Part shown: piece by piece, positions 7,589-64,000 of the stretch | Layout of the letters: the number at the start of each line of letters is the position of its first letter | Position numbering within the stretch: the first letter of the stretch is position 1 | Assembly (NCBI GenBank): GCA_015232575.1 | Contig: JADFZL010000007.1 | Span: 126,277 to 190,276 of the forward strand | Reading direction: 5' to 3' | Source: Candidatus Rifleibacteriota bacterium | Lineage (GTDB): Bacteria; Muiribacteriota; Ozemobacteria; Ozemobacterales; Ozemobacteraceae | Length of the DNA: 64,000 nucleotides | The notes under the pieces: model-generated | Told to the model about the DNA's origin: nothing | What the model saw: the letters and a program-made list of their open reading frames with translations, nothing else | Database searches by the model: none | Program-made: the position numbers and the translations under genes

Positions 7589-8021
7589 GAGTGCGTCAGT
7601 CGAACTTGTCCGACCGCGGGGAGTGCGTCGGTCGAACTTGTTCGACAGCGGAGGACACAAAGTGTCCGACCGCGGGGAGTGAGGCGGTCGAACTTGTTCG
7701 AAGGCGGAGGACACAAAGTGTCCGACCGCGGGGAGTGCGTCGGTCGAACTTGTTCGACAGCGGAGGACACAAAGTGTCCGACCGCGGGGAGTGCGTCGGT
7801 CGAACTTGTTCGACAGCGGAGGACACAAAGTGTCCGACCGCGGGGAGTGAGGCGGTCGAACTTGTTCGAAGGCGGAGGACACAAAGTGTCCGACCGCGGG
7901 GAGTGCGTCGGTCGAACTTGTTCGAAGGCGGAGGACACAAAGTGTCCGACCGCGGGGAGTGAGGCGGTCGAACTTGTTCGACCGACGAGAGGGGGCGCGT
8001 GCCCCCTCTCTAAAAAGAGGG
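7589..8021 (+). repeat. 56-bp tandem hairpin array ending in a three-hairpin element (copy 1)
   Basis: The sequence GGACAC-AAA-GTGTCC begins at 7653, 7709, 7765, 7821, 7877 and 7933, exactly 56 bp apart. It alternates with the palindrome TCGAAC-TT-GTTCGA and the spacer GACCGCGGGGAGTG. Two unit variants (GTCGG...ACAGCGG and GGCGG...AAGGCGG) are interspersed. The last unit continues into a third hairpin, GAGGGGGC-GCGT-GCCCCCTC at 7989-8008, which ends 16 nt before the carbamoyltransferase start codon. Open frames crossing the array on both strands are only a result of the repeat having no stop codons. It is much more GC-rich than its surroundings. The same terminal unit occurs at 59364-59457 and 63704-63796. 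Confidence 0.9.
8004..8021 (+). promoter_or_regulatory. Alternative hairpin that would cover the ribosome binding site
   Basis: CCCTCT (8004-8009) can pair with AGAGGG (8016-8021) around CTAAAA. AGAGGG is the only Shine-Dalgarno-like sequence before the ATG at 8025. CCCTCT also overlaps the 3' arm of the GAGGGGGC hairpin (7989-8008), so the two structures exclude each other. This is the geometry of a translational switch. Regulation is inferred. Confidence 0.4.
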
Positions 8022-8024
8022 ATT

Positions 8025-9746
8025 ATGCAGCAGCCTGTGATACTTGGACTTGGGGTGTTTAGTCATGATTCTGGAATTGCTATTCTTCAGGGCGGAAAGA
8101 TTTTATTTGCGGCTGAACAGGAGCGTTTTGACAGAGTAAAGCACAGCCGGGCATTTCCGTATGAAGCAATAGATGCCGGAATTGAATTTCTTGGAATGTC
8201 ATTCAGCGATATTGATCATATTGTAATTAATTACGATACGACGCTTCTTTTAACAATGTACATTTCTTATATCTGGCGCTATCTTCCAAAAAGTCTCAAC
8301 ATGCTTTTTGACCGCCGCAGGTATGAAAATGCCTGGAAATCCGGAAACTTGCGCAACAAAATAATTTCGCGCTATAAATGCAATAGAAACCTAAAGTGGC
8401 ACTCAGTTCCACATCACCTTGCTCATGCTGCCTCGGCTTTTTATTGCTCTGGTTTCGAAAGCTCGGCAATTCTTACTTCTGATGCGCTTGGGGAATTCGA
8501 TTCAGTTCTCATGGCAAAGGGCGAAGGTCTCAGAATAAACGCTCCTGATCGAATTATGTTTCCACATTCTATTGGCGCAGTATATTCGGCAGTAACAGAT
8601 CACCTCGGCTTTTCAATTTATGAGGGCGAGGGAAAAGTTATGGGTCTGGCTGCCTATGGAAATGAGAATCCGATTTTTGACATGAGTGATCTGGTAAAGT
8701 ATCTTCCTGATGGCAGATATGAAATTCGTCCGGAATATTTCTCATTCCCTTACCTTCCATGGGTTCATGAAAACTGGGTCAGCAAAAAGTTTCTCAACCG
8801 TTTTGGAAAGAAGAGAGAAAAGAAAGAGCCTCTTTTGCAGAAACATGCTGATATTGCCAGAGGGCTTCAGAATCTTGCTGACAAAGTTTTTGTACATCTT
8901 ACTCATGGAATTGCCAAAAAAACATCTGAGAAAAACCTGTGCTATGCTGGCGGAGTTGCTCTGAATGGATACAGCAATACGAGGGCACTTTCAGACGGAA
9001 TTTTTGAAAAAATGTTTATTCAGCCAGCGGCAAACGATGGTGGTACAGCTCTGGGAGCCGCTCTATACCATGCTCACAATAATCTTGGATGCCCCAGAGA
9101 ACAGGGAGAATTTTCTCCCTATCTCGGTCCTTCATTTTCTGGCAGAGATTGCGAAAAGGCTTTCTCAGGTGCAGGAATATCTTATTCGCAGCCTCAGAAT
9201 CTTTGCAAAGAAGCTGCGGCACGCCTGGCACGCGGAAGAATAATGGGATGGTTTCGTGGAAAAATGGAAGTTGGTCCGAGAGCGCTTGGGAACAGAAGTA
9301 TTCTTACTGACCCGCGCTTTGCTGCAACAAAAGATCATCTGAACAATGCTGTAAAAAAACGCGAATCTTTTCGTCCGTTCGCGCCTGTTGTACCACTTCA
9401 CAGAGCATCAGAATTTTTCGAAATGCCTGCAGATTCATCTCCTTACATGCTTCTTATAATGAAAGTCCGTCCGGAGTGGCAGGAAAAACTCAGGGCGGTG
9501 ACTCACGTCGATGGCACTGCCAGAGTGCAGACGATTGATCGGAATATTGATCCACTTTTCACATCTCTTCTCGAAGAATTTGAAAAGCTATGTGGAATTC
9601 CTGTTCTGTTAAATACTTCATTCAATGGTCCCGGAGAACCGATAGTCTGTTCACCCGAAGAAGCAGTTAAAACGTTCCTCAACACAGGAATGGATGACCT
9701 TGTACTAGAATCACTGATTTCAGAAATTTCGCGTACAAACCGCTGA
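8025..9746 (+). CDS. NodU/CmcH/TobZ-family carbamoyltransferase
   Basis: This 573-residue protein has the two-domain carbamoyltransferase layout. The N-terminal Kae1/YrdC-linked ASKHA-like domain begins ILGLGVFSHDSGIAIL and contains the metal-binding His motif HHLAHAASAF. The C-terminal domain has EVGPRALGNRSIL and LLNTSFNGPGEPIV, both hallmarks of the family. Members transfer a carbamoyl group from carbamoyl phosphate through carbamoyl-adenylate to a hydroxyl of a sugar or natural product. The substrate here is unknown, because no glycosyltransferase or antibiotic genes are adjacent. The start at 8025 fits the family N-terminus. An in-frame extension to 7959 would translate the hairpin repeat and is rejected. 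The gene is monocistronic and directly preceded by the hairpin element, which probably forms its 5' untranslated region. Confidence 0.92.
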   Translation: MQQPVILGLGVFSHDSGIAILQGGKILFAAEQERFDRVKHSRAFPYEAIDAGIEFLGMSFSDIDHIVINYDTTLLLTMYISYIWRYLPKSLNMLFDRRRYENAWKSGNLRNKIISRYKCNRNLKWHSVPHHLAHAASAFYCSGFESSAILTSDALGEFDSVLMAKGEGLRINAPDRIMFPHSIGAVYSAVTDHLGFSIYEGEGKVMGLAAYGNENPIFDMSDLVKYLPDGRYEIRPEYFSFPYLPWVHENWVSKKFLNRFGKKREKKEPLLQKHADIARGLQNLADKVFVHLTHGIAKKTSEKNLCYAGGVALNGYSNTRALSDGIFEKMFIQPAANDGGTALGAALYHAHNNLGCPREQGEFSPYLGPSFSGRDCEKAFSGAGISYSQPQNLCKEAAARLARGRIMGWFRGKMEVGPRALGNRSILTDPRFAATKDHLNNAVKKRESFRPFAPVVPLHRASEFFEMPADSSPYMLLIMKVRPEWQEKLRAVTHVDGTARVQTIDRNIDPLFTSLLEEFEKLCGIPVLLNTSFNGPGEPIVCSPEEAVKTFLNTGMDDLVLESLISEISRTNR

Positions 9747-17025: not shown

Positions 17026-17226
17026 CTAGTCCATAGTCACAGAAGAGTTTTATAATAGTCTTGACATTGTAGGAAAATAGCCGATCGGTAATGAGGAAAA
17101 CGCTTGTTTTATTGTCATCTCGACCGAAGGGAGAGATCTCCGCAAGATTAGAAGATTTCTCCCTTCAGTCGAAATGACATCAGAATAACAAGTTTATCAT
17201 AAAGTTCAATTATGACTAAGGACTAG
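17026..17226. repeat. MITE-like palindromic repeat, copy 3
   Basis: The outer inverted ends are CTAGTCCATAGTCA (17026-17039) and TGACTAAGGACTAG (17213-17226), with 13 of 14 positions matching. The core at 17113-17179 reads TGTCATCTCGACCGAAGGGA at the left and TCTCCCTTCAGTCGAAATGA followed by CA at the right. The ends differ from those of copies 1 and 2, so different outer sequences carry the same core. Confidence 0.75.
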
Positions 17227-54083: not shown

Positions 54084-54312
54084 CAGTATCTTTTTTTTGT
54101 TCTGACTGCATCTGCAAGTTTAAAAACAGCATTGATTTAATCAACCCGTAAGCTTCATCACGTGTAATGTTTTCAAGGCCGCCGACTGAAAAATTCTTTT
54201 TAAAAGCCTGGAATTGAGACTCTCCCATTTTTTCAAGCCATCGCAATTCTTTTTTGTGTATAGCACACACTTTCTGCAATTGCTCTGGAGTGACTGAAAA
54301 ATCTTTATCCAT
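54076..54312 (-). CDS. Small protein of unknown function, overlaps floA
   Basis: This 78-residue, mostly helical and charged protein with two Cys (QLQKVCAIHKKELRW and others) has no signal or membrane segment. It starts at ATG 54312, overlapping the last 8 nt of the FloA gene, which suggests coupled translation and perhaps a FloA-linked function. I recognise no family. Its stop codon is inside the AACCACGGA repeat, so the original C-terminus may have been altered by repeat insertion. Confidence 0.6.
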   Translation of the reverse strand: MDKDFSVTPEQLQKVCAIHKKELRWLEKMGESQFQAFKKNFSVGGLENITRDEAYGLIKSMLFLNLQMQSEQKKDTDF

Positions 54313-58867: not shown

Positions 58868-59344
58868 TTATGCCTTTCCTGCTTTTTTAACTGCATCAAC
58901 GATTTTTGTGTATCCGGTGCAGCGGCATATGTTTCCAGAGAGAGATTGTCTGATATTTTCAACGTTCGGTTTTTTGTTGTTTTTTAAAAGTGAGTATGAG
59001 GAAATAAGCATTCCCGGAATGCAGAATCCGCACTGTACTGCTCCTTCGCTGACGAAGGATTCCTGAACTTTTTTCATTACAGGATCTTCAAGAAGACCTT
59101 CCAGAGTTTCAACACTGTCTTCCTGTGTGAGCGATGCAGCCAGTTTAATACATGAATTGATCGGTCTGCCGTTCAGCAGAACAGTACATGCTCCGCACTC
59201 TCCCTTGCCGCAGCCCTCTTTGGCCGCGATCAAAGAAAAATCCCTTCTGAGCATTTCAAGCAGCGTTCTTTGCGCTGGTATTGTTTTCTCAACCTTTGTA
59301 CCATTCAAATTAAACTTTACGCTAACAGTTGAATCTGCAGCCAT
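58868..59344 (-). CDS. 2Fe-2S subunit of a molybdenum hydroxylase (CoxS-like)
   Basis: This 158-residue small subunit has both iron-sulfur motifs: the plant-ferredoxin type GCGKGECGACTV with C45, C50, C53 and C65, and the C-terminal type with VQCGFC (C105, C108) and NICRCTGY (C140, C142). It hands electrons from the molybdenum site to FAD. The ATG at 59344 has GGAGGA directly upstream. The frame remains open through the hairpin element to 59464 but that part is not protein-like. The gene is the first of a unit that starts next to the three-hairpin element (59364-59457). No large subunit gene is in the window. Confidence 0.93.
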   Translation of the reverse strand: MAADSTVSVKFNLNGTKVEKTIPAQRTLLEMLRRDFSLIAAKEGCGKGECGACTVLLNGRPINSCIKLAASLTQEDSVETLEGLLEDPVMKKVQESFVSEGAVQCGFCIPGMLISSYSLLKNNKKPNVENIRQSLSGNICRCTGYTKIVDAVKKAGKA

Positions 59345-59363: not shown

Positions 59364-59457
59364 CTCTTTTTAGAGAGGGGGCACGCGCCCCCTCTCGCCG
59401 GTCGAACAAGTTCGACCGTCTCACTCCCCGCGGTCACGCACTTTGTGCGTTCCGCAG
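59364..59457 (-). repeat. Three-hairpin element, copy 2
   Basis: Read on the minus strand it contains ACGCAC-AAA-GTGCGT, the spacer GACCGCGGGGAGTG, the palindrome CGGTCGAAC-TT-GTTCGACCG, and the hairpin GAGGGGGC-GCGT-GCCCCCTC (59394-59375). The last hairpin ends 30 nt before the CoxS-like start codon. The first hairpin differs from copy 1 (GGACAC/GTGTCC) by paired changes that keep the stem. It continues upstream into the 68-bp array. Confidence 0.85.
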
Positions 59458-59755
59458 CTTTCAATGCTTTCCAGTTTTATTTATACAATCTGTTTTATAC
59501 TGACCGCACTTTGTGCGTTCCGCAGCTTTCAATGCTTTCCAGTTTTATTTATACAATCTGTTTTATACTGACCGCACTTTGTGCGTTCCGCAGCTTTCAA
59601 TGCTTTCCAGTTTTATTTATACAATCTGTTTTATACTGACTGCACTTTGTGCGTTCCGCAGCTTTCAATGCTTTCCAGTTTAATTTATGCAATCTGCTTT
59701 AAACTGACTGAACTTTGTTCGATTCGCAGTTTTCAACGTTTTTCAATTCTACTAA
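59437..59755 (-). repeat. 68-bp tandem repeat array attached to copy 2
   Basis: Units begin at 59437, 59505, 59573, 59641 and 59709 (68 bp apart). Each contains a CGCAC-AAA-GTGCG-type stem (minus strand) and an AT-rich spacer (TTATACAATCTGTTTTATAC). The last two units are worn, but in the fifth the stem has changed to GAAC-AAA-GTTC, again compensated on both arms. The array fills most of the gap 59345-59896. Confidence 0.85.
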
Positions 59756-63703: not shown

Positions 63704-63796
63704 GCGGAGAGCACAAAGTGCTCGACCGCGGGGAGTGAAGATGGTCGAACTTGTTCGACCGTCGAGAGGGGGCGCGTGCCCCCTCTAAAAAAGGAG
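63704..63796 (+). repeat. Three-hairpin element, copy 3
   Basis: It contains GAGCAC-AAA-GTGCTC (63709-63723), the spacer GACCGCGGGGAGTG, GGTCGAAC-TT-GTTCGACC, and GAGGGGGC-GCGT-GCCCCCTC (63766-63785). It ends in AAAAAAGGAG, which serves as the ribosome binding site of the lipoprotein gene. The first stem again differs from the other copies by paired changes. A single unit; no array here. Confidence 0.88.
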
Positions 63797-63802
63797 TATA
63801 AC

Positions 63803-64000
63803 TTGAAATTCAGATCATTAGTCTTATTTGTTACAGGCGTTATTGCAATGGTAACTCTGTTCAGCGGATGTTCGGCTCCAAAATCGGGGTTGATATCCAT
63901 TACGCCGCAGCAGTACTTTTATTCTGCCAAGGAAAAACTTGAAATCATTGATGAACGCTCTTTTGAAGTGAAAGACCTTGATGAGATAATAAGAGTATTT
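63803..64000 (+). CDS. Lipoprotein, 3' end outside window
   Basis: A TTG at 63803 with AAGGAG 6 nt upstream starts a 66-codon open frame to the window end. The first residues form a lipoprotein signal (RSLVLFVTGVIAMVTLFSGC; lipid on the Cys), followed by SAPKSGLISITPQQYFYSAK and an acidic helical part. The YFYSAKEKLEI segment resembles the first helix of TPR-containing envelope lipoproteins such as BamD, but the fragment is too short to name it. The three-hairpin element (63704-63796) immediately precedes the gene, and its last bases supply the ribosome binding site. Confidence 0.75.
   Translation, partial: MKFRSLVLFVTGVIAMVTLFSGCSAPKSGLISITPQQYFYSAKEKLEIIDERSFEVKDLDEIIRVF

Follow-up and report, generated by a model that had tools for sequence, protein, structure and literature searches.

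Why does the same set of three hairpins stand directly before the start codons of three unrelated genes? The question arose from a 64,000-nt stretch of DNA (hereafter the window) of a Candidatus Rifleibacteriota bacterium. Its first-pass annotation had recognised the hairpins at three places and proposed either a regulatory leader spread by duplication or a mobile palindromic unit with a preferred site upstream of genes. Here, we analysed the element across the window's genome and its relatives and found this interpretation to be partly supported. We consider it probable that the hairpins form a genome-specific, non-autonomous family of palindromic mobile elements of about 85 nt, which acts as single-stranded DNA (ssDNA) at the replication fork.

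Results

Three copies in the window

The three copies were borne out with the proposed order of parts: a first hairpin (H1), a spacer and two further hairpins (H2 and H3; Table 1). The start codons lie 15, 29 and 16 nt past the H3 stem of elements A, B and C, equivalent to the 16, 30 and 17 nt reported before, as the stem is taken here at its longer extent of 22 nt. H3 (GAGGGGGCGCGTGCCCCCTC) occurs exactly at 7989, 59375 (minus strand) and 63766, with no occurrence expected from 100 shuffles. The spacer GACCGCGGGGAGTG has nine exact matches, seven of them within 7612-7961, and position 17122 gave only a 3-mismatch match to the spacer pattern. The interval 7589-8024 is not one element: it comprises 6.7 tandem 56-bp units of H1-spacer-H2 and a single H3 cap. 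Low-scoring covariance-model matches lie inside this array at 7648-7927, its 3' end is capped by intact element A, and H3 is present in the last, gene-proximal unit only. The 68-bp repeat unit of element B contains H1, with H2 and H3 absent. Two of the gene identities suggested at first were confirmed by Pfam; the third, a presumed lipoprotein, is without Pfam match and has a lipobox-like start.

Table 1 Features of the three element copies in the window.
Feature	Position	Strand	Evidence or remark
Intact element A	7928-8009	+	Covariance-model score 106.3 bits; sequence
Parts of element A	H1 7933-7947; spacer 7948-7961; H2 7963-7986; H3 7988-8009	+	
A-rich tail of element A, CTAAAAAG	8010-8017	+	Followed by Shine-Dalgarno (SD) sequence and ATG (8025) of the carbamoyltransferase gene
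Carbamoyltransferase gene abutted by element A	8025-9746	+	PF02543/PF16861
Tandem array, 56-bp unit x 6.7 (H1-spacer-H2 without H3)	7607-7982	+	TRF
Intact element B	59374-59455	-	105.5 bits; sequence
Parts of element B	H1 59436-59450; spacer 59422-59435; H2 59397-59420; H3 59374-59395	-	
A-rich tail of element B, CTAAAAAG on the minus strand	59366-59373	-	Sequence
Locus-specific tandem repeat 5' of element B, 68-bp unit x 4.4	59437-59736	-	TRF
CoxS-like [2Fe-2S] protein gene abutted by element B	58868-59344	-	PF01799/PF00111
Intact element C	63704-63786	+	104.4 bits; DNA fold z = -7.2
Parts of element C	H1 63709-63723; spacer 63724-63737; H2 63740-63763; H3 63765-63786	+	
A-rich tail of element C, AAAAAA	63787-63792	+	Followed by SD GGAG and TTG start at 63803
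Lipoprotein-like gene start abutted by element C	63803-64000, runs off the window	+	No Pfam match; LFSGC by eye

Design, copy number and range

An intact element is about 85 nt long and consists of GGAG, H1 (6 bp, loop AAA), the spacer GACCGCGGGGAGTGAG, H2 (10 bp), H3 AGAGGGGGCGCGTGCCCCCTCT and a tail (CT)AAAAAG. Folded as single-stranded DNA, element C reaches -30.2 kcal/mol (z = -7.2) with a minimum free energy structure of exactly the three hairpins; the RNA fold is also stable. In stem alignments, which were selected for exact H3, 98.5% of the paired cells are standard and 13 pairs changed on both sides, a degree of covariation that none of 500 shuffles equalled and that slid-partner controls failed to reproduce. 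At ten loci, H1 is framed by TGA..GAACGC where other copies have GGA..GACCGC. This sub-class, often found in 76-78-bp arrays with H3 joined to H1, thus shows a double change (G-C to T-A), which spans a possible tandem G.A pair.

The window's genome (7.05 Mb in 54 contigs) matches the spacer exactly at 189 places and the H3 hairpin at 157. A search with a covariance model built on 49 copies, an approach already suggested by the first-pass annotation, yielded at least 150 matches in this genome, 146 in bacterium CG2_30_54_10 (G009) and 27 in NC_groundwater_727 (G007), two MAGs from other genera of the same family. By the same model, the element is absent from 37 of 40 genomes of the phylum, including the congeneric genome G001, and a 262-kb sample of G001 contained no comparable dispersed repeat (no dispersed 16-mer family). 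Rfam 15 gave only weak matches below the cut-off for six element-carrying loci, none of them at the element. Phage or plasmid origin was rejected, as viral contigs, phages and plasmids had no match to the element.

Placement against genes and replication

Placement was evaluated for 119 arrays in the about 990 kb of the genome that surround the copies, a sample centred on strong copies from the exact search, which may under-represent solitary decayed ones; a home-made 3-periodic Markov caller supplied the gene predictions. None of the 119 arrays overlaps a called gene. A start codon is faced by 84 arrays at an H3-to-start distance sharply peaked at 15-18 nt, and several seemingly distant cases have a better start codon close to the element. 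The other 35 (29%) are located at the stop of an opposing gene, with a distance between -2 and 26 nt for 31 of them. Where this distance is -2 to 0 nt, in 14 arrays, the opposing gene takes its stop codon from the element's tail, read in reverse (CTA as TAG or TTA as TAA). At about five loci, a -35/-10 pair begins right after the tail. Hence, the preferred site is not upstream of genes as first thought: the 3' end of the element sits flush against the next gene boundary, start or stop, abutting a Shine-Dalgarno sequence, a -35 box or a stop codon, and a wide gap lies on its 5' side (right/(left+right) of the gaps 0.05 at the median; KS p about 1e-43). The abutted genes are unrelated housekeeping genes such as purA, guaA, ruvX, rpsF, panD and murC, and no tRNA genes were found beside outlier copies.

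Since the A tail is seen in start and stop contexts alike, yet A5G precedes only 2% of element-free starts, the tail belongs to the element. On the same counts, we rejected an A run as insertion target. An intrinsic terminator was rejected as well, because H3 is followed by the A tail in sense and by no T run in antisense.

But, what then determines the orientation of the element? The abutted gene lies on the element's strand in 71% of the cases (84/119) compared to 62% of other nearby genes (534/863; p = 0.06). As this is barely above background, the start-pointing orientation in the window mostly reflects gene strand bias. The locally G-rich strand, on the other hand, carries the element in 104 of 119 arrays versus 66% of genes, and also in 27 of the 35 stop-facing arrays. 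Twelve contigs with three to eight arrays each display a single polarity, which all of their 19 stop-facing arrays match independent of gene direction; six contigs are of mixed polarity, one switches once and one has a single exception. GC skew serves here as a proxy for replication direction. As the G-rich strand is generally the leading strand, the element's sequence would lie on the lagging-strand template. No polarity was seen in G009 and G007 (8:7), though contigs there are short. Three copies that all face starts can thus mislead: genome-wide, it is replication that sets the orientation, not the gene.

Probable selection on the element's own strand

Among 118 gene-proximal copies, an unbiased count gave per-site differences of 0.005 for H3, 0.018 for the spacer and 0.08-0.11 for H1/H2; most of the changes in H1/H2 are compensated. 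The gene-proximal copy stays intact at nearly every locus, whereas copies farther up the same arrays have decayed: unpaired H1 cells amount to 38 of 858 in upstream array copies versus 3 of 708 in gene-proximal ones (p = 2e-7), a comparison confined to H1 because many array units are without H2 and H3. Stem mismatches tolerated on the element strand are biased towards G.T over A.C: the ratio is 29:3 for copies that face a start and 9:2 for those that face a stop. As copies share ancestry, the counts are not independent, and 9:2 is not significant by itself. The bias does not flip in the stop-facing class, which speaks against the neighbour's mRNA as the selected molecule. Most likely, selection acts on the element's own strand, either in ssDNA form or as an independent RNA.

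One-sided tandem repeats

Within 500 nt 5' of the element, tandem repeats occur at 88 of 117 loci and mostly run into the element, compared to 2 of 117 loci on its 3' side and 13 of 204 element-free intergenic regions as control. The repeat unit, mostly 40-140 bp, is locus-specific and combines local upstream sequence with part of the element's 5' side; its breakpoints are variable and in several cases fall at the H2 apex (TCGAAC^). The array at leuB contains an element-free junction, CACTTC-AAAAAA-GATTCGG, beside the element-filled form CACTTC-AAAA-[element]-AAAAAA-GATTCGG. Six loci retain, immediately 3' of the intact copy, a remnant of an older H3 arm with its tail. In front of rpsF, the intact element is preceded on its 5' side by about 22 directly adjoining copies of the 14-bp unit AGAGCACAAAGTGA, which derives from the first half of H1.

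A MITE carries the core in relatives

In G009 and G007, the H1-spacer-H2-H3 core resides within a unit of 135 bp whose ends, GTATCAxCTCAA ... TTGAGxxGATAC, are inverted repeats. Its 8-bp target duplications are perfect in five copies and agree on average at 4.7 of 8 positions versus 2.2 in shuffled controls; hairpin and T run after H3 are found together in this form only. The unit is a classical MITE. Three copies in G009 have GGGGGAAGxATG, an SD-like stretch with ATG, just before the core, from which a short reading frame could run through the element; the stretch is not shared by all copies.

The window's genome presents a different picture, as no transposition event was seen there. The element shows no signal of target-site duplication (TSD; shared flank word 3.64 versus 3.60 shuffled), and none of the seven ends found at its loci that resemble terminal inverted repeats (TIRs) has a core within 200 nt. 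Comparison with G001 and other genera revealed no empty sites at base level, since proteins align and intergenic DNA does not. An insertion is visible at coarse scale: plsY and gpsA nearly abut in G002 and are separated here by about 200 nt and the array. A search for PF01797 (Y1/HUH) found one IS200-like gene in the window's genome, with no element nearby, and none in G009 (67% complete). The first reading as a mobile palindromic unit nevertheless holds in so far as the element has a high copy number, a patchy range and a core that lies inside a mobile MITE of relatives.

Another dispersed family of the window's genome, with ends GTATCxxCTCAATAATTCGGGG, shares its ends with the core-carrying MITE. 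It occurs at window position 54105 (minus strand), at L050:3046, L072:993, L161:7651 and L171:4505 and at the left end of L197, where it is about 100 bp long with both ends inverted.

Discussion

A probable mobile element acting at the replication fork

We propose that the element's sequence, exposed on the lagging-strand template, folds there and would be recognised in folded form by a putative ssDNA enzyme or by repair machinery and then copied. By slippage or template switching, polymerase or nuclease action at the hairpins may duplicate the DNA on the element's 5' side, and spread to new loci could occur via a putative ssDNA-processing activity. DNA between the 3' tail and the adjoining gene would be lost or never retained, up to the point where further encroachment is checked by purifying selection on essential sequence, be it an SD, a -35 box or a stop codon; such a limit would explain why three unrelated kinds of functional sequence abut the tail. 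Effects on the adjoining gene would be incidental. Several points count against this explanation. The window's genome showed no transposition event, empty site or TSD; no cognate enzyme was found there or in G009; six contigs are mixed, and polarity was not seen on the short contigs of G009 and G007. Also, the near-universal intactness of gene-proximal copies exceeds the needs of a purely selfish, decaying element. As gene-proximal fidelity is not fully explained by selfish spread, there is room for a host role.

Alternative explanations

A tentative and rather doubtful reading is that of a polar ssDNA element which has its function in the folded state, as lagging-strand template, and at the same time generates minisatellites on one side. 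It might be, for instance, a chromosomal single-strand priming/restart signal or an ssDNA mobilisation substrate, of which one intact copy would be kept at the gene boundary with locus-specific repeats built behind it.

Phage and plasmid single-strand origins use hairpin sets. We think it unlikely that the element is a polar chromosomal element of benefit to the host, whose folded strand acts in cis in replication or chromosome handling and whose copies are kept by host selection. Its possible roles would include that of a primase or restart signal or, by analogy, of a polar motif like KOPS or Chi. The polarity with GC skew and within contigs, the near-invariant spacer and H3 together with compensated H1/H2 in almost every gene-proximal copy, the fold selected on the element's own strand and well over 100 copies across 7 Mb all fit such a role. 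Yet the element is absent from a genome of the same genus and from 36 further genomes of the phylum and therefore is not a conserved host function, and in relatives its core is carried by a MITE.

A 5'-UTR leader spread by duplication, with transcribed hairpins that control translation or stability of the downstream mRNA, is what the copies in the window suggested, and we now regard it as distinctly improbable. It would account for the 84 of 119 arrays facing a start, mostly at 15-18 nt, which is about the edge of an initiating ribosome, and for the stable RNA fold and the strong covariation. The tabulated distances and orientations largely speak against it, as 35 of 119 arrays are antisense at stop codons and starts are not preferred over the strand background (p = 0.06). 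In stop-facing copies, the G.T excess is on the element strand and the neighbour's mRNA is the other strand; about five copies end before a -35 box and are therefore not transcribed from that promoter. Furthermore, polarity tracks the replication strand, the genes are unrelated housekeeping genes, the congeneric genome has no element and six loci gave no Rfam match.

That the element strand encodes a family of structured non-coding RNAs, acting in trans and dispersed by mobility, is very hard to credit, although a strand-specific fold and a near-invariant unpaired spacer would equally be expected of RNA: the copies in the window's genome have no conserved element-borne promoter or terminator, an A tail follows H3 where a T run is needed, more than 100 copies are near-identical, and Rfam has no match at six loci. 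An ordinary DDE-type MITE that moved as in G009 and G007 and whose ends eroded in the window's genome is highly improbable, since, despite the 135-bp unit with TIRs (GTATCAxCTCAA) and 8-bp TSDs in two sister genera and the presence of the same TIR family in the window's genome, none of the seven TIR-like ends there has a core within 200 nt, TSDs are lacking, and neither replication-strand polarity nor tandem repeats on the 5' side only are expected of such an element.

Relation to known repeat families

The element works like REP, BOX and MIRU repeats but lacks what defines REP/RAYT systems and DDE MITEs, and it is best read as a new family among short interspersed palindromic mobile elements; with BOX, the comparison was one of architecture. 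With REPs and REPINs mobilised by RAYT (TnpA-REP) it shares short extragenic palindromes in high copy number, a GGAG-like motif 5' of H1 and ordered clusters that repeat the element and its flanks. REPINs form ordered clusters with repeated flanks, and in SBW25, REP tandem arrays are oppositely oriented at about 2 and 4 Mb (PMC3116915); IS200/IS605 and REP systems act on ssDNA of the lagging-strand template (PMC6006769). Unlike REPINs, the element has three different hairpins in fixed order and orientation with no inverted pair, a foot GGAG (variant TGAG) before H1 instead of a GT[AG]G guide, a 3' end flush with start or stop codons and tandem repeats on one side only. Membership in REP/RAYT was rejected: neither the window's genome nor G009 (67% complete) yielded a RAYT gene, and the sole Y1 gene found, an IS200-like one, is not linked to the element.

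BOX elements of Streptococcus pneumoniae are intergenic, were judged non-autonomous mobile elements and consist of modular hairpins with constant ends and variable internal tandem modules; they are reported to be enriched between convergent genes and to repeat a shared module, boxB (PMC3049150). Compared by architecture, both are hairpin elements with tandem modules, whereas the tandem unit here differs per locus and grows only 5' of the element. MIRUs of mycobacteria are short, repetitive and apparently mobile units whose insertion at a start codon does the gene little harm (PMC12548453). Membership in this family seems doubtful: a MIRU contains a short internal ORF that is translationally coupled to the downstream gene, whereas the element described here tolerates an internal 1-nt insertion (GAGTGAG versus GAGTGAAG), is antisense at stops in 29% of the loci and has three structured hairpins. 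The MITE of G009 and G007 has the same H1-spacer-H2-H3 core, but the core in the window's genome comes without TIRs or TSD, has an A tail in place of the T run and follows replication polarity.

With more than 100 loci in one genome, the family offers a natural replicated experiment on strand polarity, fold selection on one strand and one-sided repeat growth. It also lends itself well to testing how minisatellites are seeded by lagging-strand-template hairpins and how short palindromic elements spread without a recognisable RAYT.

Further dispersed repeats

Four contigs stop within a copy of the element (C2, C9 and C19 at their end, C22 at its start), and these copies then share the same sequence, AAAAAATTGGAGTAGGTTGTTGCC, which points to a longer element-carrying repeat that breaks the assembly. 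A further short dispersed repeat, TTTCGACCGAAGGGAGAAATC ... TCGAGATGACA, is present at several loci, including the upstream regions of L072 and L197.
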